Shown: one piece after another, positions 951-58,700 of the stretch | How positions within the stretch are numbered: position 1 is the stretch's first letter | Layout: each line of letters opens with the position of its first letter | Assembly: GCA_963682175.1 (NCBI GenBank) | Contig: OY821779.1 | Coordinates: 1,934,501-1,998,500, forward strand | DNA: 64,000 bases | DNA from: Triglochin maritima | Lineage: Eukaryota; Streptophyta; Magnoliopsida; Alismatales; Juncaginaceae | Direction: 5' to 3' | Position numbers and translations under genes: made by a program | Notes under the pieces: model-generated | What the model was told of the DNA's origin: nothing | The model's input: the letters and a program-made list of their open reading frames with translations, nothing else | Database searches by the model: none

Positions 951-1260
951 AATCCCATAAAGATCGCCTGATACTTTCTCGTAGGATGTGTAGGTCACAA
1001 TCAACATTTAATTAAATATTTACCATCTCTCAACAGTAAGATACCAAATGAACTACTAAACGTTGCCCCAAAACTACTTAAATCGCCCCTTGAAATTACC
1101 AAATTGCCCTTAACAATATATTTAATACCCATATCGTCCCGTGTCTTTAAACAAGGTTTTTGACTCAGTTTTACTAACATTCCTAGTACCAACACCACGA
1201 AAATGTCTGACGAAACACCTAGATCAGGCGAAGTAACGGAGACGGATTTTTTTTTCCGAC

Positions 1261-1483
1261 TCGGGCGTCTGGCTAAGACGCCTGCACCATCGTGGAGGCG
1301 TCTGGCTAAGACGCCTCCAACATGGTTGAGGCATCTTATCCAGACGCCTCCACGATGGTCCAAGCGTCTTAGCCAGACGCCTATACCATGGTCTAAGCGT
1401 CTCGCTAAGACGCCTCAACCATGGTGGAGGCGTCTTAGCCAGACGCCTCCACGATGGTACAGACGTCTTAGCTAGACGTCCCG
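1261..1483. repeat. GC-rich palindrome array in the left intron of copy C
   Basis: About ten alternating units of GACGCCTCCA-x-CATGG-x-TGGAGGCGTC type, joined by (T)TAGC(C)AGACG or GGCTAAGACG. Neighbouring units pair as imperfect palindromes. Open reading frames run through it on both strands (RRLAKTPPPW-like peptides), a by-product of the repeat period rather than coding. Confidence 0.85.
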
Positions 1484-1608
1484 TTTTTTTTAATTTTTTT
1501 GTCAAATTAAAATTATACGGTGTGTTATCTCAAATTATTTGACGTTTCTTTGCAAGTTTTCGGTGGTAACCGGTCGGATTACAATGAGTTTTTTTGCAAG
1601 TGATGAAG

Positions 1609-1768
1609 ATTCAAAAAAATTCCAGATCCAACATTTTTTAAGTTCCAAAATCCCCTGGTGGTAAAACATCCTGACTTACAAATACCACCTCGACAGGTCG
1701 TTCGGGGGTCTCGCTCCCCGGTGAGCGAGCGGATTTTGAAATTGTTGGATCTGAAATTTTTTGAATTT
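1609..1768. repeat. Inverted repeat inside copy C
   Basis: The arm at about 1609-1653 and the arm at about 1731-1768 are imperfect reverse complements (gatccaacat/attgttggatc core). They flank about 75 bp that itself contains a short hairpin (ctcgctc/gagcgag). It has no counterpart in copies A or B and may be an insertion or captured fragment. Confidence 0.6.
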
Positions 1769-1874
1769 TCGGTGTACCGAAGGGGTATCGGTCATCCGAA
1801 TATAGTAATTATTAACTTATTAATTAATTAATTTAACAATTATCTAAATTTATAATTAATTATCTTTTTTAAAA

Positions 1875-2041
1875 AATAATAAAAAATTACGGGCGTCCGA
1901 CGGAGCCGCGCCCACGTAAGACGCCTGTCCCAAGGGTGGAGCGTCTGGGTAAAACGCCTACCCGATGGGTAAGGCGTTTGGGTAAAACGCCTCCCCCATG
2001 GGGGAGGCGGCTCCGTCGGACGCCCGTAATTTTTTATTATT
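1875..2041. repeat. Large GC inverted repeat (35-bp perfect arms) in the right intron of copy C
   Basis: Positions 1875-1909 and 2007-2041 are perfect reverse complements of 35 bp. The 97 bp between them hold further half-palindromes (cccaaggg, cccgatggg, cccccatggggg). Confidence 0.85.
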
Positions 2042-2594
2042 TTTTTATTAAAAAGATGTTAGATATTTTACCAGATTCGAGTACACTGGGGCGTTCGTTG
2101 GTTTATTACTGACCTCCAAAACATTATTTTTTATGATTATAAGAGGAATATGAAGAGAGATGTGTGATAGGAGGGTAAAATGTCGCGTTATAGCAGTAGA
2201 AATGAGAGAAGGGCAAAATGGTAATTTCAAGGGGCGATTTAAGTAATTTTGGGACGATGTTTAGCAATTCAGTTATATTTATCATGGACTGAAATCACAA
2301 GAAAATAAAATCAATTCAGAGTAATCGATTCAAAGTGAGTTGAAGCACATCGAACCCGAAAAATTACTATGGTCTCGCTCGAAATGGTGATAAATAGGGA
2401 GAATAATTAAACAGATATAAATTTTAAATTAAAAAAGTACCTATTTATTCATCTCTTATATAATCCCCTATTATTAGCCTCATCCCAAGCGCGACATAAA
2501 TTGAAAAATCAAGACCATTACTAATTGCAGTTAGTTAATTTCGAATATTATTTTTCATTCGCATGCTTGACATTTAATATAAAATAAGATAGAG

Positions 2595-3139: not shown

Positions 3140-5747
3140 ATGGCGTCTTCTTCTTCTCTAACCTCTCAACCCCTCTTCCACACCCGAACCCAAACCCAAA
3201 CCCCAAACCCGCACCGCCTCGCCTCCATCCGCCGCATCTCCGCCGTCCACGCTGCCGAGCCCACAAAGACGGCGTCGGCGAAGTGGAACGTCTCGAGCTG
3301 GAGGACGAAGAAGGCGCTCCAGCTCCCGGAGTACCCGAGCCAAACCGATCTCGATTTCGTCCTCCGCACGATAGAGGACTTCCCCCCTATCGTCTTTGCC
3401 GGGGAGGCGAGGAAGCTCGAGGAGAGGCTCGGGGAGGCGGCGGTTGGGAAGGCGTTCGTTCTCCAGGGTGGGGATTGCGCTGAGAGCTTCAAGGAGTTCA
3501 ATGCGAATAACATCAGGGATACGTTTAGGGTTTTGTTGCAGATGAGCGTCGTGCTTGGGTTCGGCGGGCAGATGCCGGTTGTTAAGGTGAGGTTTGGTAT
3601 TTTGGTTCTGTTTTTTCCTTTTTTTAGGGTTTGGTTGAGATCCGAAATTGCTTTGGAATAATGATTGAGGAAGGTTGGAGTTGTTTTCGTGATGTAACGT
3701 TTGTTCAGATCTGGTCGGGTGATGCCATTGGAAAGGGGAAATAGGTGAAATTATAAATAGATTCAAATTCGTTTTTTTAGTCTGAAGAAAATTAGGTTCA
3801 AATTCCTTTTTTTTCTTGAAATGTTTAGGATTTGTGGGATTTGCAGAGAGAGTTTAATCGATGTTTTGGAAATTTAGGAATGGTTCGACCGTGTTAAGAT
3901 TACAAGATGTAACTTTGAGTCATACCAATCCTTGGTTCGTGTTCGCATCGTTGCCGGTTGTAGCATGTTAATGATTTCAAATTAAGGAGAGGAAACAAAA
4001 TAGAGTTATTGTCTTCTTATGGTAAAGCAATTGTCCTTTTATAGTATCCAAAATGAAAGGATTCATTTTCCAAGTTATTTGGTGTCATTTTCATCCAAAA
4101 AAGTAGAGACGGACGATGTCTCTCAAATGATCCACTAATCGAATCACCCCATTTTTGTAAATAGTAAAATGCATTTATTTTTTTGAATGGTAAGAGTAAA
4201 ATGCAGTTTGAAATTATATGGAAATCAATCCCAAGAAAGGTTGAGATCACGTACTCACATATTTGTGAGCTTAAAATAGATTTTTGTCTCTGAGGTCGAG
4301 AATTACCGGTCAGTAAGCTTAAGACAGTCAAGTTAGATCATGTTGCTAGTTGAGAATCCACTTGACCCTGCCTAGTTTGCATGTTGGGGTGTATTGAGAT
4401 CAAGGTTGTTCTTCCAACTTAATCCATCTGTCTTGGCTAGCAGCCAAGAATGGTACAGTTTGCTAACATCTTGACATGTAACGTGAGCAGGTTGGAAGAA
4501 TGGCTGGTCAGTTTGCTAAGCCAAGATCCGATGGGTTTGAGGTGAAAGATGGCGTGAAGCTACCAAGCTACCGAGGTGACAACATCAATGGTGATGCCTT
4601 CACTTCGGAGTCCAGGGTTCCTGATCCACAGAGGATGATCAGAGCATACACTCAATCTGCCGCAACACTCAATCTCCTCCGTGCATTTGCAACTGGTGGT
4701 TACGCAGCAATGCAGCGTGTAACACAGTGGAACCTTGACTTCACGGAGAACAGTGAGCAAGGCGACAGGTACAGGGAGTTAGCTCACAGGGTGGATGAAG
4801 CTTTAGGCTTCATGGCTGCTGCAGGGCTCACAATAGAGCACCCTATCATGAGCACCACGGACTTCTGGACCTCACATGAATGCCTGCTGCTTCCTTACGA
4901 GGCAGCCCTAACTAGACTCGATTCCACTTCTGGACTTTACTATGACTGCTCTGCTCACATGGTCTGGGTCGGAGAGCGTACCCGCCAGCTTGATGGTGCT
5001 CATGTCGAGTTTCTCCGTGGTGTTGCTAATCCACTCGGTATCAAGGTATCAACTCTTTCAGTCCTCCAAAATCAAGATATTATATATACACTGCTTTTAT
5101 GCTAAATTAACTGTGCTTATATTTGTAGGTGAGTGATAAGATGGATCCTAGTGAGCTGGTTAAGTTGATAAACATTCTGAACCCTAAAAACAAGCCTGGA
5201 AGGATCACTATAATCACAAGGATGGGAGCTGAGAATATGAGAGTGAAACTCCCCCATCTCATTAGAGCAGTTCGTGGTGCTGGCCAAATTGTGACTTGGA
5301 TAAGTGATCCCATGCATGGCAATACGATTAAGGCCCCATGTGGTCTCAAAACTAGACCGTTTGATGCAATTCTGGTATGTCCAGAAAACTTCCAATCTTG
5401 CATACAAGTAATTATTGCATCGTAGTAGTGCTTCAACAATTAACACTTATGTTTGCTAGCAGGCTGAAGTGAAGGCATTCTTCGATGTGCACGACCAAGA
5501 GGGCAGCCATGCAGGAGGTGTTCACCTAGAAATGACCGGTCAGAATGTTACTGAGTGCATTGGCGGGTCAAACACTGTAACCTTTGACGACCTAAGCTCT
5601 CGCTACCACACCCACTGCGACCCAAGGTTGAATGCTTCACAATCGCTTGAGATGGCTTTTATCATCGCTGAGCGGTTGAGAAACAAGAGGATGGGACCAA
5701 AGTACCGATCTGTTCAGCTTGGATCATCACCTTCCCTGGGATTCTAA
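3140..5747 (+). CDS. Class II 3-deoxy-D-arabino-heptulosonate 7-phosphate synthase, plastid precursor
   Basis: Catalyses the first step of the shikimate pathway, joining phosphoenolpyruvate and erythrose 4-phosphate in plastids. Four exons read in phase: 3140-3586, 4491-5045, 5129-5374 and 5463-5747, giving 510 residues, normal for plant enzymes. The first ~60 residues are rich in Ser, Thr, Pro and Arg with few acids, as in a chloroplast transit peptide. The mature part starts near [19 protein letters not shown]. Visible family motifs are [12 protein letters not shown] (metal-binding Cys about residue 113), [22 protein letters not shown] across the first junction (split here only for description), [21 protein letters not shown] text in exon 2 and [20 protein letters not shown] near the end. 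All introns are GT-AG. Exon 1 is much richer in GC than exons 3 and 4. No breaks were seen. The numbered plant paralogue cannot be assigned from sequence alone. Confidence 0.97.
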
Positions 5748-16081: not shown

Positions 16082-16567
16082 ATTAAGAGTGTTTTTCCCC
16101 CAAAGAGTGATTAGGAGTCTTGGATGTGACTTGAGATCACGAGAACAAGGTGTCTACATTATCAAACGTCAGTTTATTGGACGAGTGTTTTTGGTCGTAG
16201 GCAACATGGGCATCAGTCTGGACCAAGATGTTGGGCAACATCAGGTGTCACTGTAGCAATTAGGATCGAGTAAAATTTGTTCCGGACTGAAATTTCAGAT
16301 CGTACCGAACCAATCGATCTGAACCAGATCACACATATCAGGATTTGTCGAATCTTATGTCTTGAATTTTTAGTTATCTAACTTTCAGTCACTCTGATTG
16401 GGATTTTAGTCAGTCTTAGTCGGTTCGGTTTGGTTTAGGGATTTTTCTTGAGTTTGGACTGAATTTTTTATATTTTTTGTGTTTTCCCAATATTAGTGTT
16501 TTTAGCCTAAGTTTTTTATTATATGCTTTTAAAATTTCAACGAATTTGCACGAGTGCCTTTTGAAAA
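16082..16567. other. Gene-free interval between two transposons
   Basis: No gene. A ~30 bp motif, tttttagttatctaacttt, occurs at about 15748 and again at about 16367, so a local duplication may have preceded the MITE insertion between them. Confidence 0.4.
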
Positions 16568-16630
16568 GGGAACTACTATTCGTCGCCGGAAAACTAATTA
16601 AATCGCCCCAAAAATGACCTTTTTGCCCCT
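16568..16630 (+). repeat. Left terminal inverted repeat of copy A
   Basis: Begins gggaactactattcgtcgcc and ends ttttgcccct. It matches the reverse complement of 22686-22748 along its length with scattered changes. Confidence 0.85.
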
Positions 16631-16721
16631 AACAAATCAATTAATACTGATTTCGTCCCGTGTCTTTAAACAAGGTGTTTGACTCAGTTTTACTCACATT
16701 CCCAGTACAAACACCACGAAA

Positions 16722-19664
16722 ATGTCCGGCGAAGCACCAGAATCCGGCGAGGTAACGGGGGCGGAATTTTTTTTCCGACTCGGGCGTCTGGCTAGGCCGC
16801 CTCCACATAGGTGGAGGCGTCTGGCTAAACCGCCTCCACCTAAGTGGAGGCGGTTTAGACAGACGCCTCCACCTAGCTGGAGGCGGCTTAGATGCACGCC
16901 TACACCATGGTGGAGGCGTCTGTCTAACACGCCTCCACCTATGTGGAGGCGTGTTAGGCAGCCGCCTCCACCGGCCTAGCCAGCCGCCCGTTTTTTTTTG
17001 TTTTTTTTTATTTTTTGTTAAATTCAAAATTTTCAGGTTCCGTTGCAAGATTTCGATGGTGATGGAGTAGATTACAGTGAGCTTTTTGACAGTAAAGAAA
17101 TATTTACAACAATCGAGGAATGTTGTAAATGGGCGAAACAACTTGCGATAGGAGCCGGATTTTTTTTGGTTATATCATCGTACAAACCAAAAGCAGATAA
17201 CCGGATGGATTGTTACCTCAGATGCGATCGCAGACGTGAGATGAGTTTTCGTGATACGAGTATTGCACTGCGAAAGAATACGAAAAGAAAAGGTTGCGGT
17301 TGTCGGTTTTTGGTAAAAGTGGTGGAGCGACGAGATCGTGATGGATGGGTTATTGTTTCTAGTAGCATGTTTGGGCAGCACAACCACCCATTGGCAGTTT
17401 ATTCAGAGGGTCACCGACATGTCAGCGGACTTAGTGCTGGGGCAAAGCAAATTGTTCGGGATATGACAGAGGCACAAGCAAGGCCCCGTAACATTTTGTT
17501 GGCGGTAAAGAAGAAATTTTCGGACGATAATCCTAATCAAATGCACATTTACAACTTCAGAGAGTACATGAGGAGGACGAAATCTGAAGACAGGAATCCT
17601 GCGCAGCAGTTTCTCAGAGAGGCAGTGCAGCATAAGTATTTGCATTGGATTGTGGCAGATGAAGAAACTAATGTCTTGACTCACGCATTTTTGGCACATC
17701 CGACTTCAGTTCAGTTGTTGCGTACATACCCATTCGTGATCTGTATGGATTCGACGTATAAGACGAACAAGTACAAGATGCCTTTGTTTGAGATGGTTGG
17801 GGTTACTCCAACAAATATGAATTTCCTCGTCGGATATGCGATTTTGCAGGATGAGACCGAGTCTAGTTACCGATTGGTGTTGGAGAGGTTGCGAGATCTG
17901 TTATTGGATATTGTTAGCCCGACAGCAATAATTACGGACCGGGAGATGGGTCTGATGCGACCAGTGGCAGAGGTTTTTCCTGAGTCAGCTCATTTACTAT
18001 GCACCTGGCATATCAACAAAGACGTGTACAACTACGCATACCACGTATTCGGCAAAGAGAAGCAGCTTGCAGAGAGTTTTAGACGTGGAAGATGGAGGAG
18101 AGTCATGCTTTCTGATTCACAGACGGATTATGATAGAGCAGTCCGTAATCTGAAGGATTCTTACAGTTCCTGGCCAGTGCTGACGAAGTATGTGGAAGAC
18201 ACGTGGTTGGTGCATAAGGAAAAATTCGTGTTGAATTGGACGAATCAAGTTCTTCATTTCAGCAACACTACGAACTGCAGGGTGGAAAGTGCACATTCGG
18301 CTCTGAAAGAGTGGATCACTACATCGACTGCCGCTCTCGACACTCTTTTTGACCGCGTGAACTCGTCTATTGAAATGCAGCTGACAAATATTCGGAACTT
18401 TCTTGAAGATTCGAGACGTCAAAATTTGGCACATTACATAGGTCATCTGTTTCAGCATATAAATGGCCGAGTTTCGCATCACTGCTTGTCGTTAATGACT
18501 CAGGAGTTGAAGAGAATGCAGGACTTAAGTGATGAAATTGAATATCGTTGTGGGTGTGCTTTCCTGACAACACATGGGATTCCTTGTGCCTGTACCATGT
18601 ACGAGTGTTTCGCGTCAGGTGATAGAATTTATTTAAAGCAGATTCATCCATTCTGGAAAACACTTGTTATCGGAGAAGGAGTCCAGATGTCAGAGTTTGT
18701 TGATCAGTCAGCACAAGACACCGAGCATTTTCGGAAGCTAGTGGATGAGATCTCGCAGAGCGATCCTGCAGTAATTCGTAGTGCCTCTCGTATTTTATAC
18801 GAACAGTTACACCCCGATCAGTCGAACTATGGAGAACCCGAAGAAAATACTAAGGTACGAGGTCGACCTAGGGGAAAGTCGACACGTCGGGACCCGAGTG
18901 CCTTCGAGTATGCTGAGCGAGGTCGTGGTCGGTCTGGCAGTAGTGGGAGCAGGGGTCGTGGTCGGTCTGGCAGTAGTGGGAGCAGGGGTCGTCGGTCTAA
19001 TTCGTCTCGATCGTCCTTGAATACGGGCACAGTATCTTCTGGTATGTCGATATCTTTGTTGTTATGTTATTTAATATATATTAGTAATCTAAATGGGGTT
19101 GAATATATTATCTCCTAATTTTGTTGTTTTAATGAATTGTTATTTACCTATCAGGAAATCATTTTGCCATTTCTGCATAGGTGGAATGACGTACGTGCTG
19201 ATGGCAACTGTGGATTTCGATGTGTTGCCGATGTCTTTCATGGTGGTCAGGAGAACTGGTCGTACGCCCGTCGTGCGATTTCTAATGAGATAGGTGCACA
19301 TCCTATTTATGAGACAGTCTATTTCGGCCATGTGAGAGAGGCTCGTCAACGAATTGATTGGGGCGGGGGAGGTTGTGGCGAGGATCATTATATGGAGGTT
19401 TGGTCCGACTTGTTTCCTATTGCGAATTTTTACAAGTGCGCGGTCATGTATTTCGCAGTGGGAACGGATGGTTCGTTGTTCCCGTGTCTTACTGTTCTTC
19501 CCTGGGAGTGTCCCTCTACCATGACGAGGCCTGTCAGAGAGTTGGTCATTGCTCATTTAGGGAGTTACGCTCATTTTATTCGTTTGGAATTACTTGATGA
19601 TTTCCCAGTACCTCCTATAGCGACCTTATGGTATCAAATGCGAGATGAGAGCGTTGTTGGATGA
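16722..19664 (+). CDS. Mutator-like transposase spliced to an OTU cysteine protease domain
   Basis: Likely exons are 16722-16751 (MSGEAPESGE), 17037-19031 and 19155-19664, in phase throughout, giving about 844 residues. The N-terminal part has a zinc-binding DNA-binding region (CDRRRE ... CGCRFLVKVVER ... WVIVSSSMFGQHNHP). The MULE catalytic core follows, with Asp near residue 248 (CMDSTY), Asp near 311 (ITDREMG, then CTWHI) and Glu near 427 (RVESAHSALK). A SWIM-type zinc motif (CGCAFLTTHGIPCAC) comes next, then an Arg/Gly/Ser-rich linker with a duplicated RGRSGSSGSRGR block. The OTU domain has catalytic Cys in RADGNCGFRCVAD and a candidate His in YAHFIRLEL. The frame is uninterrupted. If the stronger donor at 19042 (GTATGT) is used instead, the frame closes soon after the junction and no OTU is made. 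Confidence 0.85.
16781..16990. repeat. GC-rich palindrome array in transposase intron 1 of copy A
   Basis: At least five palindromic units such as GCCTCCACATAGGTGGAGGC, joined by GTCTGGCTA/TTAGACAGAC-like spacers. It lies between the GTAACG donor at 16752 and the TTTCAG acceptor at 17036, so transcripts would carry it only before splicing. Both strands are open in places, as expected from the repeat. Confidence 0.85.
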
Positions 19665-19990
19665 GAGGATCAGTACCAAAGTAGGATGGAGTATTGGAAC
19701 CGGTTACGTTGATTGTAATTTGTAATGTTTTGTAATGTATAATATATCGTGTATTTCTACTTATATCGTGTTGTTTTTTTACCGTATTTTAAATTTAAAT
19801 ATTATTTCATATCTAAAGAAATAAGTTGAAAATCTTTTCGTGAAAAATAAATATTAAAAAATACGATAGTCAAAGAAATATGTAGAAGATATGTTCGTCA
19901 GAAATAAATAATAAGAGTACACAAATAAACATAAGCATATACCAACAAATGTACTAACAGTGCAACAAAACGAAAGTAAAAGCAAGACAA
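19665..19990. other. Shared 3' region between the two convergent genes of copy A
   Basis: AT-rich sequence between the OTU stop and the PMD stop, probably holding both 3' UTRs and polyadenylation signals. No gene. Confidence 0.5.
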
Positions 19991-22601
19991 CTACAGCTCA
20001 GCATCTGAATCATGGTCTGCAATGCCCAACTGGCTGTTCCAATCCTCGATCAGGCGATCCCAATCTGTACATGCAAGTCTCGTCGCCTCACTCGGCATGA
20101 CGTCTCTCTCGCAAGAACGGTTGCGTACACTGTATCGCCCTACTCATCCACTGTATGTAAAATAAAAATTAGCGTACAATAACAAAATATACTTTACAAT
20201 TAAATATAAAATTAGATAAACTTACCGCATCGGCACATGTCCTATCCAGTGCTCTCTCCGGTCTCGGAATGATACCGCGTACGAGTAGTGGATGTGAGCA
20301 CCTACCGAACCACTGCAAATAATCTGGAGCACAAGTGGAGGGGTCGCGGCTACGACTCAGATCGGCCAGGTGTAGTCGTCCTAGTCTCGGAAATGTCCTC
20401 CAAACCGATTCCGCAGACGAAACGCTGTGCCTGACGTCGTACATCGTGGCAGTCGCAGACCGTACTGCATGCTCGGGCGTCGGAATGTCAACCGGGATCA
20501 CCTGAACGTAGCCTAACTGACGTAACACGCGATCAGGTATATAAGGCTCTGTGATATCCCTATAACGAATAATGCCGGCAAATGTAGTCCTCGGCACAGC
20601 TACAGCAGGATCGGGACCGTACGGTAACCACTCCAACTAAACGTTTATACGTTAATAATAATAAAATTAAATTTAACTAAACGTGAATGATATATACATC
20701 ATATACCTGCGATGCCGTCATCTGATCTAGCCGTCTACGAATAGAAAGAAGTCGACTCTCGCTCTTATCCTCCGCCCGGACAGCCAACATACGCGAACGA
20801 GGATGGCCACGCTCAACAATCTTCCGCTCACGATGGGGGCGGAAAGCAGGAAAATACTCATATATCCAAGCCTGCAGCAGTGTAAGACAACCCGTAATCT
20901 GACCACAATCAGCGCGACTGGATATGCCCAGCTGGCGATACAGATATGCCAACGTCGCCGACCCCTATGAGTAATCAGCAATGGTATCTGGGTCCCTCGC
21001 CTCCAATAAGTCGCGTGGTCTCAGTCTGGAACCGCTCTTGTCGAGAAACAATACGCAGCCTAGCAGTAAGAAGAAATAAGCAGTCATCTGCGTATCCTCA
21101 GTCCGTGGTGGTCGCCCCCGTCTGCAACACTCGTCCACAGCGTCGATACTAACACCACCGCCACTCCAGAATGAGCTATCCCGCCCAAGACCCTCCAGGC
21201 TGACACCCAGCAACTCAGATACATATAACTTCAGCTCAGATGTCGGCGCCTGCGCACTGACCATGGGCCCCTCAACAGGAATGTGCAGAATCTGAAAGAC
21301 GTCATGCAACATGATCGTCATCTCTCCGAACGGTAAGTGGAAAGTGTTGGTGTCAGGCTGCCACCGCTCCACGAATGCCGAAATCAACGGCATGTCGATG
21401 CAGGAAAACATGCTGTACGGCAAGTGACCCAATCCACTGTCGACCACGGTCGCCGTCATATCCTCAGTCATCACTGAACGCCATGCCTGCAATGTCGTAC
21501 AGGCTCTGTGCCGATTATGGCACTTCAAAACCTTCCGTTCCTCGTCATCCCAGATGCGTCTGGCGACGTGGCCTCCGAAACTCGGAATGACGCTGCCATC
21601 TACAGGACCACCGGGAATAATATCCGTGACGATCCAAGACTCGTCATCACCCCTCTTCTTCTTTTGAGCTCGGGCGTCTGCAGTGCACGAACTCGAATCA
21701 CCGGTCACAAACCGGCCACCTCGATCCTTCCTAATGACTCACTCAGCTGAAGGACCACCGTGTCGCCCCCGTCCTCGACCGGACTGATGTACCGCCTCCT
21801 CCTGTGGCCCCAAGTCGTATCGGCCCCCATCGTCACTGTCGTCGTGACTCCTCGCCTCATCTGAATCATCCTCGTCGTCGAAAGACTCTCCAGGTGTCTG
21901 ACGACGACGTAACAGATCTCTCTCTCTCCTAACTGAAGCAGAAAGACCACGTGTACGTGGATGACGAGGACCTGACTCGTCTGCTATACTACGTACCGGG
22001 CGTAAGGGAATTGATTTCCCTTTTCCTCCACGGTAACCCGATGACTATTAATTCAATTTAAAAATACAAATTTATTAATGATTTTACTATAATAATTAAA
22101 CTAATTTTTAACTTAATAATCGATTTATTTAGCAATTATCACAATTAATCAATAATCTGTTACTAAAATCGTACACAACTAATTACTAACATAATAATCA
22201 ATTTATTTATTAATTAACACATTTTATAATTAATAAACGATTATCTAAACTAATTTAACTCATTATTAACATAATATTCACTTTATTTAAATTTTATCAC
22301 AATTTATAATCAATTTAAAAACAAATTAAAAAAAATCCAGGCGTCTGCGGGAGACGCCTACCCTACGTGGTAGGCGTCTGCCGGAGACGCCTGCCCTACG
22401 TGGGAGACGTCTCCCGCAGACGTCTGTGCCATGGGGGGGGGAGGCGGTTCCCGCGACCGCCCGATCGTTGGGTCGGGCGGATCCCGCGGTCGCCCGACTC
22501 AAAAAAAAAAATTTTAAAAATTAATTGAAATTAACAAGGTGATTTACCAGATGTGAGTAGTCCGGGGTGTCCGCTGGCTCTTTCCCTGGCCTCCGAGACA
22601 T
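19991..22601 (-). pseudogene. Plant mobile domain (PMD/MAIN-like) gene, inactivated
   Basis: Minus strand. Exon 1 is 22548-22601 (MSRRPGKEPADTPDYSHL, then GTAAAT); exon 2 is 20707-22044; exon 3 is 20226-20636; the last exon runs from about 20154 to 19991. Exon 2 opens with a basic then acidic region (SSGYRGGKGKSIPL ... ESFDDEDDSDEARSHDD) and then the PMD fold (LISAFVERWQPDTNTFHLPF, GEMTIMLHDVFQILHIPVEG, LAYLYRQLGISSRADCGQIT). PMD proteins occur both as host genes (MAIN/MAIL, gene silencing and genome stability) and inside plant transposons. Lesions: TGA at 21739-21741, where copy B has TGG; TAG at about 20967, where the family has Trp (YS-W-GSATLAYLY); and a frame change in the last exon, where the natural ending IEDWNSQLGIADHDSDAEL is in another frame. 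A truncated protein from the internal ATG at 21708 cannot be excluded. Confidence 0.8.
22337..22500. repeat. GC-rich palindrome array in PMD intron 1 of copy A
   Basis: Repeated (A)GGCGTCTGC(C/G)GGAGACGCC units with CCCTACGTGG centres, followed by GACCGCCCGATC/GGTCGGGCGG pairs. It lies inside the intron between 22547 and 22045. Confidence 0.85.
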
Positions 22602-22685
22602 CCTATTTGGTGAATAAAAGTGTGATATGAAGAGAAAGTTGTGTTAAAAGTGTGAAATGAGGAGTTATATTAGTAGAAAGTGTAG

Positions 22686-22748
22686 AGGGGCAAAATGGTA
22701 ATCTTACGGGCGATTTAAGTAGTTTTACGGCGACGAATAGCAGTTCAG
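22686..22748 (-). repeat. Right terminal inverted repeat of copy A
   Basis: The reverse complement begins ctgaactgctattcgtcgcc and ends attttgcccct, pairing with the left repeat. Confidence 0.85.
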
Positions 22749-22756
22749 TTTGAAAA

Positions 22757-24712
22757 TTTAACCATAGATTGGTTTGGTTGTAAGAAGTTTTGAATTCCAC
22801 TTGCGTGATTTTTTATTTTTCTTTATATAATGCAAGTGAGAGAAGATTTTATCTCATAAAACTCAATTTTACATATGTTTTTTTTACTTTTATTGTAAAA
22901 CAATCACCCCAAACTTATATCATAATTTCAAATCCAAAGTTCATTAAATTTTCCACACAACCATGATACCACAATCCAAACAACCTTTGAAAAACAGAGA
23001 GAATTGTTTAGACTTTAGAGTGTGGGGTTCTTTAATTTAATAATACTCGTTGTGCACCCTAGTTGGTTTAAATATTAGTTGAGTGGTAATTTACGTTAAT
23101 AATTAAAATTAACTCCAAAATCAATTACCAAAACAAAAAATTGATTGGGAAATCCTTGTGTTAATCAATTGTTTGACCTAGAAGTTTTGAAACGTAGACC
23201 GATACATGAAGCAATGAAGGGAATCTGGAGTTGCAGTCTTCGGTCAAAAAAGGACAGCAACAGGCTGTCGAGAGTCTTTTTCTTTTTGCGGGGAAGAAGG
23301 AAAGCATCCACGGCTTGGCTGCCTTTCTTCTTCCTTTTCCAAACTGGCAAACAACAGAAGATACACACGGGCCACTCCTGCCAACTCACCACCGCCCACC
23401 ACGTCTCCCGTCACCTCCTCCTCCTCCTCCTCCTTCTCCTCCTCCTCCTCTCCTTTCCAACCATCACCCAACCCACCTCCTCTTCTCCTCCACTCTTAGG
23501 TTTTTTTTTCAACGCAACAAAAAAAGAAATGGACTAATTGCACATCAACCCCTCGAGAAATTCAGAACTAATTATCATCCTCTATTTATTTGTTTTCTTT
23601 ATGACGTGTTGGATGCAATAGATAATAGGATGGTTATGACTACGGTCACCCTAAAAAGTCACAATATTGCAATCTCTAATATCAAACCTGAGATTTTAAA
23701 CCTCAAGGTTGCTTAGAGCAACAATTTTAGGTGATGTCACGAACATCCTTAACACAAATACACACCATTATACTAGGTGCTTGCTGACGAGTTTGTCGCC
23801 TTCGATCTAAATAAGAAGTTTACACTCATCTTTTCGTTCACCTTGTTCATATCTTCCTAACGTACATAGTGCCAGTGGTGGAGCCACACACAGGGCAGGT
23901 GGGGCACCTGTCCCACCCAGAATTTGGAAAAAAAAATCCAATTTTTTATTTTTATTCAATACCATAGATTTAGGTGTAGTATCTTGAAGTTTGTGGTATA
24001 ATTGTTTCGTTTAATTTGATATTTAGGAGGAGTAAAGATAATATTTTGACAACAATTGATTTTAGAGTCAATTTGATATGGTTTGGGAAGCTTCTTGCAT
24101 TTACGATTTTATAACAACCAAAATGAGATTGATTTTTTACCATTTAAAACAACTTATGGGTCTTCAACAAAGGAGCATTTGAAACAAATCCTTACTTCAT
24201 TATGATCCATTTCATATACTTCAATATCATTGTGAATCACATTTAATATAATTTCTTAATTCGGTTTTCCACATTAGGGAAAAGAACTAGTTCAATAATT
24301 CTTTTTCATTGTCGTTAATTAAATCATTGCTGGCAACCTAATTCTCTTTTATTGTTAATCCAAACATTTTCTCTTTATATCAATGAATAAATCTCCACCC
24401 ACGCGACTTAGATGTCTTGTACCTCCCAATACAAATATTTGACAAAAAAATTCAAAATTTACAAAACATCAAATTTTCGTTCACTTCTTTTTTATATATA
24501 TCATTAGATGAATCTATTTACTTGTATGACTTAGATGTTTCGTATTTCGACAGCGACAAATAGCGGAAAAGAAAACAAATTCAAATATACAAATCTACAA
24601 GGGGCTCCAACAAAACAAAAAGAAGTTAAAACCACCTCAACGGAACCCCAACCCACCCACCAACTATCCTCCACTTCCAATCACCCCCATCCTCTCTTCC
24701 TCCTCTCCTTCC
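22757..24712. other. Gene-free interval with a CT-rich microsatellite and a transposon remnant
   Basis: 23416-23456 is a (CTC/CCT)n tract that creates spurious open frames on both strands. About 23872-23935 (agtggtggagccac ... ggggcacctgtcccaccc) resembles the conserved end of a common plant hAT-like element (CAGTGGCGGAGCC), but no second end was found. Nothing else is recognisable. Confidence 0.4.
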
Positions 24713-27910
<3,198 letters not shown>

Positions 27911-38454: not shown

Positions 38455-39107
38455 TATGTGTTGGGGAAAAAATTGTGTTGCGTTTTTTGCGTGGATACCC
38501 CTTATGTGTCACACTGTTTACGTATTGCATCATATATTTATCATTTAGGAACATTAGATTTTGAAGCTCCAAGTTCTAAACGATTAGAAAAGATAACCAA
38601 CTATTTTTTTCATAATAATCTATGAGTAGAACTAAAATAGCTTGATCTTAGAAGGGAAAATTTGGCAAGAAAATGTGTTCGACTGTGGTTTGGAAGCTGA
38701 TATCATGGTTCATACCGTTTGATGAGTGGATTGTGTAGCATGAAACCATATTTTGGCATATCCAGCTTCCTACACCTATTCATGGTATTTCTAAATTGGA
38801 AAATTTACTTGCAAAAGAAAACGATATTAATTGGAAATTTAGACCAGCATTTTTCTTATGATGATATTGGTGATGCAAATTTGACTTCCTCAACGACACC
38901 CATCAGTTCGTGTTTTGGAATTTCATAGCCAAGGGGGTCTTCTTAGATCTTACCTTGAAAGTAACACGCCTCTTCCTTTGAATTTAGAAGGAACATATGC
39001 TGCTCTCTTTAGTTAATTAGACCATACTAGATATCCGTACGAGAGGTATTCCAAGAGTTTTCTCATTTCACTCCGAAAAACTACTAAAAAGTTAGAGCTT
39101 AAACAAA
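38455..39107. other. Gene-free interval
   Basis: AT-rich DNA with no recognisable gene. A frame around 38719 is open for 69 codons but shows no protein-like features. Confidence 0.4.
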
Positions 39108-39241
39108 CTAAAATGTTATTCGTCGCTGTAAAACTACTAAAATCGTTCGTACAGATTACCATTTTGCCCTTCTACCCTTTCTACTTATAACTCTTCATTT
39201 CACTTTTCTAACACAACTTTCTCTTCTATTCAACAGATACA

Positions 39242-40575
39242 ATGTCTCCGAGGCCAGGAAAAGAACCACATACGCCCTGGATTACTCAAATATGGTAATT
39301 TTCCTTGGTTATTTTAATTAATTTTTTAAATATTTTTTTGGATGGACGTCCGCGGGAGACGCCCGACCCAACGAGTGAGCGGCCACCGGAATCGCTCCGG
39401 CAGACGCCTCCCCAGCGTTGGTGCGTCTCTCGCAGACGCCCCAATTTGTTTTAAATTGATTATAAATTGTGATAAATTTAAAATAAATTGAAAATTATGT
39501 TAATAATGAATTAAATTACTTTAGTAAATCCTTTATTGATTATAAATTGTGATAATTACTAAATAAATCGATTGTTATGTTAATAATTAGTTTAATTATT
39601 TTAGTAAGGAATTATTGATTAAAAGTTGTGATAATAGTTAAATAAATTGATTATTATGTTAATAATTAGTTGCGTACGATTTTAGTAAAAGATTATTGAT
39701 TAATTGTAATAATTCCTAAATAAATCAATTATTAAGTTAATAATTAGTTTAATTATTTTAGTAAATCCATTAATAAAATTTTATTTTTAAAATTGAATTA
39801 ATAGTCATCGGGTTACCGTAGAGGAAAAGGGAAATCAATTCCCTTACACGCGGTACGTAGTGTAGCAGATGAGTCAGGTCTTCGTTATCCACGTAGACGG
39901 AGTATTTCTGCTTCAGTTAGGAGAGATAGATTTTTTACATCGTCGTTAGACACCTGGGGATTCTTTCGATGATGATGATGATTCAGATGACTTGAGGAGT
40001 CACGACGAGAGTGACGATGAGAGCCGGTATGGCTTTAGGCCACAGAAGGAGGCGATACGTCATTACGGTCGAGGACGGGGGCGAGATTGTAGTCCTTCAG
40101 CTGAGTGGGTCATTGGGAATGGTCGATGTGGCCGGTTTGTGACCGGTGATTCGAGTTCGTGCACTGGAGACGCCCGAGCTCAGAAGAAGAAGATGGGTGA
40201 GGACGAGTCTTGGATCGTCGCGGATATGATGCCCGGTGGTCCTCTAGATGACAACGTCATTCCCAGTTTTGGAGGCCACATCGCCAGACGCATCTGGGAT
40301 GACGAGGATCGGAAGGTTTTGAAGTGCCATAATCGGCACAGAGCCTGTACGACATTGCAGGCTTGGCGTTCAGTGATGACTGATGATATGATGGCGACCG
40401 TCAGTAACAGTGGATTGGGTCACTTGCCTTACAACATGTTTTCCTGCATTGACATGTCGTTGATTTCGGCTTTCGTGGAGCGGTGGCAGCCTGACACCAA
40501 CACTTTCCACTTGCCGTTCGGAGAGATGACGATCATGTTGCATGACGTCTTTCAGATTCTGCACATTCCTGTTGT
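39242..40575 (+). pseudogene. PMD gene fragment of copy B
   Basis: Exon 1 starts at the ATG at 39242 (MSPRPGKEP) but has lost a base relative to A. Exon 2 starts at 39805 after TTAATAG. A two-base deletion near 39930 shifts the frame, and further on the sequence recovers the family frame at RSHDESDDESRYGF and runs through LISAFVERWQPDTNTFHLPF to ILHIPV, where the deletion junction cuts it. It keeps TGG (AEWVIG) where copy A has TGA. Confidence 0.85.
39345..39443. repeat. GC-rich palindrome array in PMD intron 1 of copy B
   Basis: GACGTCCGCGGGAGACGCCC, ACCGGAATCGCTCCGG and CAGACGCC units between the donor and the acceptor of the PMD fragment; shorter and more degenerate than in A. Confidence 0.7.
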
Positions 40576-40589
40576 AGGAATTTCTCTTT

Positions 40590-41255
40590 TATCGCCAACA
40601 AAATGTTACGTGGTCTTGCTTGTGCCTCTGTCATATCACGAACAATTTGTCTGGCCCCAACACTAAGTCCGCTGACCTATCGGTGACCATCTGAATAAAC
40701 AGCAAGTGCGTGGTTGTGTTGCCCATAGGTGCTACTAGAAACAACAACTCATCTATCACGATCCCGTCGCTCCACCACTTTAACCAAAAACCGACAACCG
40801 CAACATTTTTTTGTATTCTTTCGCAGTGCAATACTCGTATCACGAGAACTCATTTCACGTCTGCGATCACATCTCAGGTAACAATCCATCCAGTTATCTG
40901 TTTTTGGTTTGTATGATGATATAACCAAAAAAAATCTAGCTCCTATTGCAACTTGTTTCGCCCATTTACAAGTTTCCTCGATTGTTGTAAATATTTTCTT
41001 TACTATCAAAAAATTCACTGTAATATACTCAATTACCACCGAAATCTTGCAACGGAACCTGAAAAAAATTAATTTAACAGAAAATTTTAAAAAAACTGGG
41101 CTTCTGCCCAAAACGCCTCCACCAAGGTGGAGACACCTCGATAAGACGCCTCCACATTGGTGGAGGCGTCTTAGCCAGACGCCCGATGGGGGAAAAATCT
41201 GCCCCCGTTACCTCGCCGGATCCAGGTGATTCGCCAGATTTTTTCGTGGTGTTGA
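40590..41255 (-). pseudogene. Transposase N-terminal fragment of copy B
   Basis: The minus strand keeps the first ~150 residues of the transposase (IFTTIEETCKWAKQ, ISSYKPKTDNWMDCYLRCDR, GCRFLVKVVERRDRDR) with substitutions and an interruption after that point. The initiator ATG of exon 1 has become AAA (gaaaaaatctggcg near 41235), so translation could not start as in A. Confidence 0.85.
41104..41186. repeat. GC-rich palindrome array in transposase intron 1 of copy B
   Basis: AACGCCTCCACCAAGGTGGA and GACGCCTCCACATTGGTGGA units; two palindromes only. Confidence 0.75.
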
Positions 41256-41576
41256 TACTAGGAATGTGAGTAAAACTAAAGACAAACCCTTTGTTTAAAG
41301 ACACATGACGAAATGAGTATTAATTGATTTGTTAAGAGTAAAAAAATAATTTTCTGGCGACGAATAGTAGCCCCTAAACAAAAGTAAGCAATGATCTAAA
41401 ATCCAACTTGAAGCGCAAATTTCCATAACATCCATGTGATTGAAATTCAATTTTTTTTAATCTCCAAAGCAGCAGTAGATCGTACGGGAAAAATACAACA
41501 TCAATCTATGTTTCATAACCAATCAAAGAATGTGAATCACTACAAATAATGAAAGAACAAAGCAACCAAATGCACA

Positions 41577-52715: not shown

Positions 52716-55700
52716 ATGACGCACCAACGACGCCACCCACCTCCCTCTCAGTGCCCCTCCCCTCCCTTCGCCGTCTTCCTCGACTACTCCGACGACCCTC
52801 CCGGCCCCCGCGTGACCCTCCCCGACCTCCGCGGTTTGGTTTCTAAATGCCCTGTGAAACCCCGCAGAGCCGCCGTTCGCGCTGATGGACCCGCCGGACG
52901 GCTGTTGTATGATTCCCGGCCGGATGCCGTCGAGTGCCTTGCTCACTTCTGGAGGCTTTGTCTTGGTGGTGGTTTGAATTTGCCCGCTCCTGTGATTTCC
53001 CCTTGTGCGATGTCGGTTAGGGAGTGGGATTTGGAGACGGCGCGGTTGAGGGAGGTTTTTGGTGCTCATGTTAGTGGTTTGCTTTGTGGGGACTCCGTTC
53101 GGAAGGTTGAGAGGAGGATCGATGAGGTTGCGGCGGAGATCGCGAGAGTTGGAGGGTTGCATAAGAGGCCTAATAGTATGAAGGCGTTTATGAAGTTTGA
53201 GGCGCAAATGAAGGGTTTGAAGACGGAAAGGGAGCAGCTTGTGGAGAGGTTGGAGGAGTTTAGGGCGGGTATGAGGTCGGTTCTGGCTCGGCTCGATGGG
53301 AAGGTGGGAGAGGGGTCGGTTGGAGAGGTGGGTGGTTTTGAGTTGTTTGAATTGGGAGGTGAGTTGGACTGGTTTAGGTTGTGGAGGGTTATTGTGAGGG
53401 AGTGCCGGAGGCTTGATGATGGATTGCCTATTTATGCTTGCAGGAGGAAGATTATCACTGAAGTGCTTCACAACCAGGTTGGTGTTTGGCAATTACTCTC
53501 GGTTGCTTTTTTTTACTCAATTGTATTGGTTTTTGATACTGTGATGTGGTTTAATGATGTACACTGGGCTACATGAAACATTTGATCTAATAACTCTTTA
53601 AATTTGTGGAATGTTCAATTGTTACAATAGGTACCACACTGCCTGGTTTACTAGCATGAAGGACATAACATGTAAATTCAGTTATTTTTTTCGAGGTCAA
53701 GGGATAATTTGAATGCTCATATTATTACATGATGCAACATGCAAAGCAAAGATGGAAAAGTAGAAAATTTGAGGCTTGAACTTGGACCTCGATACAGATA
53801 TAAAAAAATGAACTTAACTTGGACCTCAATGATGTCAGAATTGTATTCTAAATATCACTTATCTTGAGTTTTACTTACACACGGGCATGGGTTTGAATGA
53901 CTTTGATTTTTTTCATAAACAACAATTAAAATTAAAATCTTATGGATTACCAGTCTTCAATTTTTTTTCTTCAAAATGTCCGAAAAAACCAATGGATCTT
54001 ACATGAAGTCATTCTTTTGACAACAAACTATGTGAGTTTGTACCGACAAAAAAAACTATGCGAGTCTTTCCGTCTATCCTAGTAGCTGGAATCAAAATGA
54101 CATTTGTTTAAAATCAAAGTGCTAGCCATGTGGTATTAATAAAACGTAATCAGTGGCATAAATTACTATTTAACATTCACTCAGACCCAGCACTCCAAGC
54201 CATAAAAAAGACTTAAAACTATAAAACTTACAGTGCTAAGCGGCTAAGCCAGCAAATACTAATACATAATTTCTTATTTGCTCGTTAACTCTTAACGTGT
54301 TAGCTTGCTTTTCAACCCACCAGTGATTAATGCTCAATTAATTTGTGGATCATCTGTAAGTGAAACAGATGTTAGCACTGGGTGTACCAGTTTCATGACT
54401 CCGCACATAAAATATTTGCATTGGTTTGTAATTATACATGGTCTAGTGGCTATAACATGTTATTGACCTTGCTTTTGTATTTTGGGCCATATTATGTTTG
54501 ACACTTATCTTGCTCTTGTTTGGGACTTTAGGTCAACTGTGTCTGTGTAATCCTTTGTAATGTATATAGAATTAAATATGAAGTATCACTACCACATCTT
54601 TTACAATGCCTGGAAACACTCTCCTTCTCAACCATGATACACTCTTTGTTTTTCTGCCTAAACTGATGTTTTTATTTATGCTACCCAATGGACGTCTTCA
54701 CCGGGGGTTTTTTCTTCTAAAGTTTATAGTAAGTAATGTATACTCCATGTGTTTTTTTTGACAACTTACATTCCATCTGTATTAAACAACTTAAATTGCA
54801 TAAAATATTTTGCTGCTTCAATTTGTTACAGGTAAACAAGATTTTGTTGTTTTTGGCAAGTAGATTGTTGCTTAAGTTATTACATTTCTCACATGCGCCT
54901 TTGATAAACAACGATTTGAATTCTCTCGGGATCAAAGCATTCACCTTTGGATTTTCATTTTTCTTAGGTATGAAGCAAAATAGAGAAGTGTGTATTTGAC
55001 TTAGTTAGTTGTGAATATTGAATTTATGTTGCATCTGTGGGTTTGTCGGTCATGAATATTACACTTATCTATTTAAGTACTTATGTCCTTATGAAGTGAA
55101 CACTTTATGTCCGTACAAAAGATAAATAATGGTTGCGATGTCATTATTTGTTTAAAAATGTGTAATATTTTTGAAAAGTGAATACCATTAGACATCTGAC
55201 TTTCTCCAGTTTTATCATTGATCCCATGCCATTTACCATGGTCTTTGAACTTAATTTTGTATCGTGTGGTTATCGTAGTCCTGGTACTAACTCAGGTTTG
55301 AAGTGCCATATTTTGCCATGCCAAAGGATTTTAGTTTTCCTGTTTACTTTTTGTGACATTGTTTTTAATATCAACAACTTTGTATACTATTAATACTGCT
55401 ATGGGTTCATGTTTCTCTTTGGTTACTTTCAAGTAACTTCTGATATCAGTCTTTCATGAACGCCTTTGATGTAGCACAAAGATTACATATTGAGGACTGT
55501 CCCTGTAGATAGTTAAGTGAGATCCATAAAAAACCATATTTCTGTCCATTCGATTGATCTTTCAATGTGTGGACAGGTAACTGTTTTAATTGGGGAAACT
55601 GGTTGCGGAAAGAGCACCCAGCTGGTGCAGTTTATCGCTGATACAGGAATAGCCATCAATGGTTCAATTTTGTGTACTCAACCTCGCAAAATCGCTGCAA

Positions 55701-58700
55701 TTACACTTGCTCATAGAGTAAAAGAAGAAAGTTATGGTTGTTACATGGATAATAGCATCGTTTCACATCCGTCATTCTCGTCTTCTCAGAAGTTTGACTC
55801 TAAAATAATGTTCATGACTGATCATTGTCTCCTACAGTATTGCATGAATAATACTAGTTTGGCTGGCATCTCGTGCATTATTGTTGATGAAGCTCATGAA
55901 AGGAGCCTGAGCACGGATCTCTTATTAGCACTGATCAAGAAACTACTTCTTCAGAGGTTTGATTTAAGGATTATCATAATGTCAGCAACTGCTGATGCGA
56001 ACAAGTTTGCTGATTATTATTTTGGATGTCAAACAATTCATGTGATTGGTAGAAGTTTCCCAGTTGAGATGAAGTATGTCCCTGATGTTTCTGCAGAGGC
56101 TTGTTTGGCTAAAGTATCTTGTCTGGCTTCAGGCTATGTTTCTACTTATGTTGCAGATGTTGTCAATATGGTTAACATTATTCACAAGTCCGAAGAAAAT
56201 GGAGCCATCCTTGCATTTTTGACTTCTCAAATGGAAGTAGAATGGGCCTGTGAGAATTTTCAATGTCCATCTGCTGTGGTGTTGCCATTGCATGGGAAGC
56301 TAGCTGGTGAAGAGCAATGCCACGTTTTTCAGAATTATGTGGGAAAAAGGAAGGTCATTTTTTCTACAAACTTGGCCGAGACATCTCTGACAATTCCAGG
56401 CATTAAGTTTGTGGTTGACTGTGGCATGGTCAAGGAGAGTAGATTTGTGCCAGGCACTGGCATGAATGTACTGAGTGTTTGCAAGGCAAGCCAAAGTTCT
56501 GCTAATCAGAGAGCTGGTCGAGCTGGTAGAACACAACCAGGTAAATGTTACAGGTTATATTCAGAATGTGATTTCCAGTTGATGCCACCATATCAAGATC
56601 CTGAAATCCAGAAGGTTCATCTTGGTATTGCTGTTTTAAGGATTCTTTCTTTGGGTATAAAAAATGTAAAAGAGTTTGAGTTTGTTGATCCCCCAAGCTC
56701 CAAGGCCATTGACACTGCTATTGGGAATTTGATTCGCTTGGGCGCTATCACTTGCAAAGATGAGATGCTTGAGCTGACTACCACTGGTAGGCGGTTGGTG
56801 AAGTTGGGCATTGAACCGAGACTTGGAAAAATTATCCTTGAGTGCCATGATTATGGTCTGAGCAAAGAGGGACTCGTGCTAGCTGCTGTGATGGCAAATG
56901 CCAGTAGCATATTCTGCAGAGTTGGCTCTAACGAGGAGAAACTAAAGGCCGATTGCCTTAAGATACCATTTTGCCATTCTGATGGTGATCTTTTCACTCT
57001 GCTATCCGTTTTCAAGGAATGGGAGTCTCAAGGGCAGAATAAAAACAAATGGTGCTGGCAGAACAGTATTAATGCCAAGTCCTTGAGACGGTGTCAGGAG
57101 ACCGTTAATGACTTGGAACATTGTCTTCGCCATGAACTGAACATAATTGTTCCTTCTTACTGGAAGTGGAAGCCAAATGAAACTTCTTACGATAAGTTAC
57201 TGAAGAAGGCGATGCTGGCTTCACTTGCCGAAAATGTTGCCATGTATTCTGGATGTGAGCGACTTGGCTATTTGGTGGCCCAAACAGGTGAACATATTCA
57301 ACTTCATCCTTCATCTTCTCTACACATTTATTCTGAGAAGCCAAGGTGGGTGGTATTCGGTGAGATTTTATCAATATCAAGTCAATATCTAGTCTGTGTA
57401 ACTTCTTTAGATGGTGAGCTGTTGCATACTATTCAGCCCTCCCCTCCATATGATATCATGAAGTTAGAGAGTCAGGAGATGCAGGTGACTACCATTTATG
57501 GACTGGGCTGCCACCTCCTTAGAAGATTCTGTGGCAGAGGAAACCGTGATCTGCAGTGTCTTGTGGCTCGGGTTAAAAGTAATTGCAAGGATGTTCATGC
57601 TGATATAAGTGTTGACTTTGATAGAGGGTTGGTTCAATTATTCACATCATCACAAGACATGGAAATGGCTTCTTCTTTGGTAAATGATTCTATAGATTTT
57701 GAAAGAAGATATTTATCAAATGAGTGCATCGAGAAACATTTGTATAATAGAGGACCTAATTTTTCTCCCTCTTCAGCTCTTTTTGGGGCTGGTGCAGCAA
57801 TTAAGCACCTTGAGCTTAAAAAGAGATTTTTAACTGTGGAAATTTCACATCCTGATGTTGATACATTAGATGACAAAGGACTCCTTAAACTGGTGGACCG
57901 TTCTGTCTCTGGTATATGTAGTTTTTGTAAGCACGTGGGTACTGAGAGAGATGGTTCAGATTCATCAAAACGGGGCAAGATCACATTTCTCACTCCTGAA
58001 GCTTCTGCAGACGCTGTAAATAAACTGAATGGGTTGGAATTTTCTGGTGCTACCGTCGGAGTATGCCCTATATGGTCATCCAAAGGTGATCATTGGCTAC
58101 CTTTACATGCTATAAGAGCCAAAGTCTGTTGGCCGCGCAGGTGCAGCAAGGGTGTTGCATTCATTAGATGTATGGTGCAAGATGCTGAGTTCATTGTTCA
58201 AGATTTGGTTGGTTTGACTATTGAAGGGCAATATGTTCGTTGTGAGATTAGTACTAAGAGATCAGATTGTGTTGTGTTAGCTGGGTTCAGTAAAAATCTC
58301 ACCGAGTCTGAACTATACGATGTGGTAAGATGTGCCACAAAGAGGATAATTTTTGATGTCTTTCTTCTGCGAGGAGATGTTATTGATTTTCCGTCTCGTA
58401 GTGTATGTGAGGAACAACTTTGCAGGGAGATCAAGCCATTTATGTGCAGCTGCTATCCATCGGTAAATTTCCGTGTAGAAGTTTTTAATCCTGGACCAAA
58501 AGACAGCATGATGAAAGCTGCTATAGTTTTTGACGACAGCTTATACCAGGAAGCAGCTAAGGCACTGGAACACCTTCGAGGAAGGGTACTCCCTAGCTGC
58601 TTACCATGGCAAAAGATTGAATGCCAGCAATTGTTTCAAAGTTCACTGTCTTGTCCTCGACATGTGTACTCTGTTATTAAGGAAGAACTGGACATTGTCC

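Follow-up and report, generated by a model that had tools for sequence, protein, structure and literature searches.

The Mutator-like element (MULE) described here, from the monocot Triglochin maritima, brings together a transposase, a predicted OTU cysteine-protease domain and a plant mobile domain (PMD) protein, and sequence comparisons support the view that the three are carried together within one element, time and again in the same order. It occupies positions 16568-22748 of a window of 64,000 nucleotides (the whole stretch of DNA analysed; contig OY821779.1, positions 1,934,501 to 1,998,500 of assembly GCA_963682175.1) and represents a damaged member of a MULE family of the autonomous type, whose two genes converge (Table 1). 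The left gene is a MULE transposase joined through an intron to a C-terminal domain predicted to be an OTU cysteine protease, and the PMD is encoded by its own minus-strand gene convergent to the transposase-OTU gene, not fused to the transposase. The initial annotation called the three-part combination little described, and a search of the open-licence literature (most subscription papers lie outside it) likewise found neither the trio, nor an OTU domain in a plant MULE, nor a link between the PMD and the fold of the VANC proteins of Arabidopsis MULEs.

The element has inverted ends on both sides and TTTGAAAA flanking each of them, in agreement with the ends of about 63 bp and identical 8 bp flanks recognized earlier; with the flanks counted in, the arms at 16560-16630 and 22686-22756 are 83% complementary. 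The transposase frame is open and matches the MULE DDE transposase profile PF10551 (1.1e-25, 90.3 bits against a cut-off of 27.6). Three minus-strand frames match the PMD profile PF10536, two of them at 76.6 and 53.2 bits against a cut-off of 34.9 (2.6e-21 and 3.5e-14) and the third, at 1e-6, below it. Profile matches had been expected for all three domains; they were obtained for MULE and PMD, and the OTU has no Pfam match above cut-off.

Many near-identical copies of the family are present at separate sites in the host assembly (1.06 Gb, 167 contigs), with at least 40 left ends at 98% identity or more (the window copy included; scored among 1843 candidates), at least 150 OTU matches (scored among 4024 candidates) and at least 148 PMD matches (scored among 6802 candidates). 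Comparing the best 150 OTU with the best 148 PMD matches gives 70 OTU matches with a PMD within 8 kb, where about 0.3 are expected by chance, and in all 70 the PMD lies downstream on the opposite strand at a median distance of 1817 bp. The order proposed from the single copy thus recurs, in 70 pairs of one orientation and in two subfamilies. Twenty loci were retrieved by left end, out of 39 other left ends (L001-L008 are 3-kb pieces of the same copies and are excluded from the counts). Transposase exon 2, the OTU exon and PMD exon 2 are whole or nearly whole in five (L009, L014, L017, L019 and L028), and the other 15 have been reduced to between 578 and 5490 bp, one of them (L012) having no right end that could be found. 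Members without OTU or PMD do exist, and full-length ones would by the initial annotation have refuted the three-part reading, but by their sequences the 15 shortened loci look like internal-deletion derivatives, and several of the copies lacking OTU or PMD keep remnants at the homologous place. Target-site duplications are perfect at 8 or 9 bp in 15 of the 20 elements with a right end (the window copy included, L012 excluded), have one mismatch in two (L014, L022) and are absent from three (L016, L020, L023); their sequences are nearly all distinct, those of L018 and L027 being the same.

Separate ends around the PMD half, which the initial annotation named as a sign of a nested insertion, were sought by an inverted-repeat search of the window, and no convincing pair was found. 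The sole pair bracketing the PMD gene is weak and AT-rich (22 nt at 73%) and is taken as chance; it is what can be said for a PMD element having landed inside the MULE by accident, an explanation to which we give practically no credence, as it is disfavoured by at least 70 OTU-PMD pairs in a single orientation and by the same order in subfamily II. We also note that L024 has about 560 bp extra between the two genes, at the place matching window position 19994, and that at L004/L011 the first family copy has part of another close beside it, in the opposite orientation.

A Mercurialis OTU piece used as query identifies several OTU-MULE types in the Triglochin maritima genome. Three loci (L031, L033 and L030) resemble the focal family at 85-97% in transposase, OTU and PMD alike and retain the PMD in convergent orientation, and a fourth (L034) has the OTU and part of the PMD, with no transposase match. 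Subfamily II is more distant, identity being about 73-77% for the transposase and the OTU and 67-69% for PMD exon 2. Its member L029, with a duplication of its own, has lost the PMD core and is left with a 149-codon frame, L035 keeps part of the PMD core and the tail, and L032 is a wreck consisting of the 3' part of the transposase and the OTU only. Ten more subfamily-II OTU loci (L036-L045), taken down the match list of the same query, rule out the PMD-deleted L029 type as the rule: PMD exon 2 is complete or nearly so in five (L038, L040, L041, L042, L045), a partial core is present in two (L037, L039), two have a C-terminal remnant only (L043, L044) and one (L036) has no PMD match. Every PMD piece in these ten loci faces the OTU.

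In comparisons with subfamily II the transposase has a dN/dS of 0.19-0.21 (dS 0.75-0.80), the OTU one of 0.23-0.29 (dS 0.55-0.67) and PMD exon 2 one of 0.15-0.24 (dS 0.86-0.97), with 0.30 (dS 1.20) for the N-terminal PMD remnant of L029. These low values indicate that all three parts were kept working over a similar span, dS being higher for the PMD than for the transposase or OTU. With the nearer relatives L030, L031, L033 and L034 as reference, dN/dS comes to 0.35-0.51 for the transposase, 0.21-0.57 for the OTU and 0.32-0.41 for the PMD. Within the young family (rows with less than 10% gaps only, pseudogenes included) they are 0.63 for the transposase, 0.32 for the OTU, 0.46 for PMD exon 2 and 1.22, from few changes, for the short PMD exon 3. 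Such values bear on whether the PMD gene is a piece of a host gene captured passively (transduplication) and jobless in the element. MULEs capture genes, two captures of genic PMD-C by MULEs have been proposed (PMC5418596), the window PMD is broken and some amplified copies lack it; but a dN/dS of 0.15-0.24 for exon 2 at a dS of about 0.9, together with its completeness or near completeness in half of the ten sampled subfamily-II loci and the at least 70 OTU-PMD pairs, makes passive capture quite improbable.

The copy in the window is itself unlikely to be autonomous. In an alignment of ten full or long copies (the window copy, L009, L014, L017, L018, L019, L021, L024, L026 and L028), all seven siblings covering the site have a transposase-OTU intron that runs from GTATGT to TTACAG, the GTATGT donor keeping the OTU in frame. 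The window copy lacks 54 bp at 19152, a stretch that takes in the TTACAG acceptor and roughly 48 nt from the start of the OTU exon. In the splice model, joining its normal donor to the leftover CAG gives a frameshift and stops, whereas a window-specific GTATCT donor is in phase; the pieces are also open if cut at the alignment column, but an AG acceptor is absent there. The OTU exon recognized earlier is confirmed at 19155-19664, but the earlier statement that it is in splicing phase with the transposase is rejected for this copy with the normal donor, the usual acceptor being lost. The PMD gene does face the transposase, as described, and is broken here: exon 2 contains two in-frame stops and the spliced length is not a multiple of three, while PMD frames of 654 residues are uninterrupted in L014, L019 and L021. 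Single genes can therefore be intact, with no wholly intact element in the sample.

Sequence searches say little about the OTU: Pfam returns only Peptidase_C65 for the exon (E 0.39, below cut-off), and the PDB sequence search gives a single row, a viral OTU at E 0.76, and no useful match. Structure prediction was therefore used, and prediction and fold search assign an OTU fold to the exon of sibling L019, at 9-20% identity to the known OTUs in the fold-search rows. Because the Pfam OTU profile is not passed, we call the domain OTU-fold and do not place it in the Pfam OTU family. The expected catalytic residues D32, C35 and H156 are conserved in every database relative covering them apart from P0008 (DGNY), the histidine stretch being absent from P0004, P0005 and P0009, and the motifs DGNC and H(F/Y)(I/V)RL are present in all ten of L036-L045; by predicted fold and conserved catalytic residues the domain is a putative deubiquitinase. 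Its distance from known OTUs and the missing Pfam match could instead point to a catalytically idle protein-binding module, or to a peptidase that only processes the fusion itself, either of which would be compatible with any role for the PMD. With the catalytic residues kept among relatives and in subfamily II, and a dN/dS of 0.23-0.29 between subfamilies, we think this rather unlikely. OTU-MULE relatives occur in Amaranthaceae and Euphorbiaceae, in some genera shared with the PMD relatives. Two such proteins (P0004 and P0007) are labelled 'PKS-NRPS hybrid synthetase cheA-like' in public records, which is misleading.

Each gene opens with a very short exon 1, followed by an intron 1 that contains a GC-rich array of imperfect palindromes. 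The core AGACGCC, chosen from three focal copies, occurs four times in the first 500 bp and four times in the last 500 bp of the window copy, that is 8 times in 1673 noncoding and once in 4424 coding bases (Fisher p 2e-4, post hoc), compared with 4 occurrences in the 52.9 kb of the window outside copies. In two elements outside the motif choice it is found 13 times (L029) and 12 times (L035) in the two 500-bp ends and once in the middle (p < 1e-7 for each), and in five further subfamily-II loci, followed from the OTU exon to the right flank, all occurrences of AGACGCC fall in the right-end region. Among 27 elements the core is present in the left end of all and in both ends of 19, and its count is above the maximum of 500 shuffles in 25 (the exceptions being L015 and L016); the eight with none in the right end (L009, L010, L013, L015, L016, L020, L023 and L024) are shortened copies. 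The arrays vary between copies in length and spacer, and the target arrays of VANC proteins likewise expand and contract (PMC5735166, PMC10398659). The arrays at 16783-16972 and 22338-22500 could also form hairpins, feed small RNAs or be hot spots of internal deletion, and several short copies break inside or beside them.

The predicted fold of the PMD core matches the DNA-binding region of VANC21 (9lnj), a protein that binds to its own family at short motifs within noncoding tandem repeats, where it lifts methylation (PMC5735166, PMC10398659). VANDAL21 of Arabidopsis (Hosaka et al. 2017, PMC5735166; PMC10398659) is thus a MULE with a dedicated protein whose fold resembles the PMD model, and like the Triglochin element it has short motifs in noncoding tandem repeats. 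VANC differs in having DUF1985/DUF287 instead of PMD, another motif and no detectable sequence match, and VANDAL ends are degenerate, with OTU unmentioned in the relevant passages of those papers. A Pfam scan of the Triglochin exons gives PMD only and no DUF1985-type family; for this reason, and because there is no sequence match to the VANC21 chain, the PMD protein is not classed as VANC. An unpublished VANC21 crystal structure is mentioned in PMC8756742, the passage concerned being silent on PMD.

The function of the PMD is described as unknown, and how it acts in silencing as largely so (PMC8616336, PMC9289625). Its first description came from a rice MULE (Babu et al. 2006, cited in PMC5418596 and PMC9289625), a link that the latter repeats, and PMD-transposase fusions are reported from several grasses and Amborella by Ikeda et al. 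(2017, PMC5418596), who speculate that PMD acts in transposon anti-silencing. The PMD is likewise MULE-borne in those elements, but fused to the transposase, and OTU goes unmentioned in the sections describing them, whereas here the PMD is separate and the OTU is fused. In a tree of 43 of the 120 listed matches and four of our own sequences, with no identified MAIN/MAIL1 reference, the family groups with proteins of Beta, Chenopodium and Bienertia, with mixed support. PMD relatives are patchy over distant plant families, including P0013, P0027 and P0033 (from the parasitic plants Orobanche and Striga) and Euphorbiaceae matches, a pattern that may reflect either horizontal transfer or old inheritance.

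From the family, its constant order and recurrence, the selection on its parts, the predicted folds and the intron arrays we infer a mechanism that we judge somewhat more probable than its negation, in which the PMD would act in anti-silencing and the OTU would be tethered by the transposase. A plausible scenario is that the PMD protein binds the palindromic AGACGCC arrays in the first introns of both genes, near presumed promoters in the element ends, and so would keep both genes open; silencing of its family would be lifted or prevented, much as VANC21 acts on VANDAL21. The transposase-tethered OTU would deubiquitinate the transposase, repair factors or the chromatin of the element, and deleted copies that keep their ends could be served in trans. 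That the element counters host control was proposed in the initial annotation, and the VANC21 fold match and conserved intron arrays place this suggestion on a better footing.

Several points weigh against this mechanism. The AGACGCC core was picked after the fact in focal copies and its binding by the PMD protein is presumed; eight of the 27 elements lack it in the right end and L015 and L016 are not above shuffles, so that short copies need no full arrays in cis. The match to VANC21 comes from one predicted model at 10% identity, the PMD core is mostly helical, where a middling Z can mislead, a PMD profile search of PDB sequences does not match VANC21, and function does not follow from a shared fold. 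For the host PMD proteins MAIN and MAIL1 the effect has the opposite sign, namely promotion of silencing (PMC5418596, PMC8616336). The young-family dN/dS values are weaker (notably for the transposase and PMD exon 3), that of the OTU reaches 0.57 against near relatives, PMD-deleted derivatives exist (L029, L043, L044, with L036 showing no PMD), and none of the ten aligned copies is intact in all coding parts.

The arrays lie just inside both element ends, and the second gene is convergent and starts near the right end. The PMD protein could therefore be a transposition accessory, which would bind the subterminal arrays for the transposition complex or help insertion, any effect on silencing being secondary. 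TnpA of En/Spm is a model for complex assembly at subterminal arrays, and mudrB, convergent to mudrA, for an insertion helper. A VANC-type fold suggests only DNA binding, and TnpA is cited as activating Spm in step with demethylation (PMC10398659). An accessory role is nevertheless unlikely, though far from negligible, in that short copies with perfect duplications often keep the arrays only in part and the only protein that matches closely in structure has been tested as an anti-silencer.

KI-type MULEs carry ULP1-type peptidases, and the maize element MuDR has two convergent genes, one from each end, as does the Triglochin element; to our knowledge mudrB is not a PMD gene and mudrA is without an OTU. 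Ulp1 is reported in Mutator transposons (PMC2836005), which also combine a MULE with a ubiquitin-family cysteine protease, theirs being the SUMO-type peptidase Ulp1 and ours an OTU. The same paper (Bao et al. 2010) describes Ginger1 transposases with a C-terminal OTU or Ulp1 domain, as well as OTU in some Helitrons, and proposes ubiquitin removal from repair proteins for Ginger1. Ginger1 follows the same fusion logic as the Triglochin MULE but belongs to another transposase superfamily, with animal hosts in the table and no mention of PMD in the part concerned. Plant MULEs, like Ginger1, would thus have joined a transposase to either of the two, OTU or Ulp1, which strengthens the idea that removal of ubiquitin-type tags helps transposition. 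The structural tie to VANC21 makes the role of the PMD testable, as motif binding in its own transposon and removal of methylation there, and in a family this abundant, a single genome allows natural copies that have the PMD, OTU or arrays to be compared with others that lack them. Tentatively, and with more doubt than for the mechanism above, PMD and VANC might form one structural class of sequence-specific DNA-binding proteins that were transposon anti-silencers first; this MULE lineage would have evolved its own PMD-array pair and a transposase-borne deubiquitinase, and MAIN and MAIL1 would be turned versions of the same tool.

Table 1. Coordinates in the window of the parts of the element and of two relatives; exon models combine splice signals with sibling copies.
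Feature	Positions	Strand	Basis
Left target-site duplication TTTGAAAA	16560..16567	.	
Left terminal inverted repeat, about 63 bp	16568..16630	+	
Transposase exon 1, 10 codons	16722..16751	+	gene model
GC-rich palindromic array, intron 1 of transposase gene	16783..16972	.	
Transposase exon 2, open frame, Pfam MULE 1.1e-25	17037..19041	+	
Remnant of transposase-OTU intron; 54 bp and TTACAG acceptor present in siblings	19042..19154	+	
OTU exon, 5' end gone in window copy; DGNC and HFIRL kept	19155..19664	+	
PMD gene exon 4, frame disturbed in window copy	19991..20150	-	
PMD gene exon 3, Pfam PMD 1e-6 (alone below cut-off)	20226..20636	-	
PMD gene exon 2, two in-frame stops; Pfam PMD 2.6e-21 and 3.5e-14 (two frames)	20707..22044	-	
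GC-rich palindromic array, intron 1 of PMD gene	22338..22500	.	
PMD gene exon 1, 18 codons	22548..22601	-	gene model
Right terminal inverted repeat	22686..22748	-	
Right target-site duplication TTTGAAAA	22749..22756	.	
Short relative with both ends and left array, subfamily II-like ends	1046..2274	+	
Old internally deleted relative, transposase 5' part joined to PMD 5' part; ends roughly placed	39104..41400	-	

Among the remaining contents of the window, we note ordinary plant genes at 4482-5102, 24530-25231 and 55517-61039, for a class-II DAHP synthase, a 14-3-3 protein and a DEAH11-like helicase with RING/IBR, respectively.
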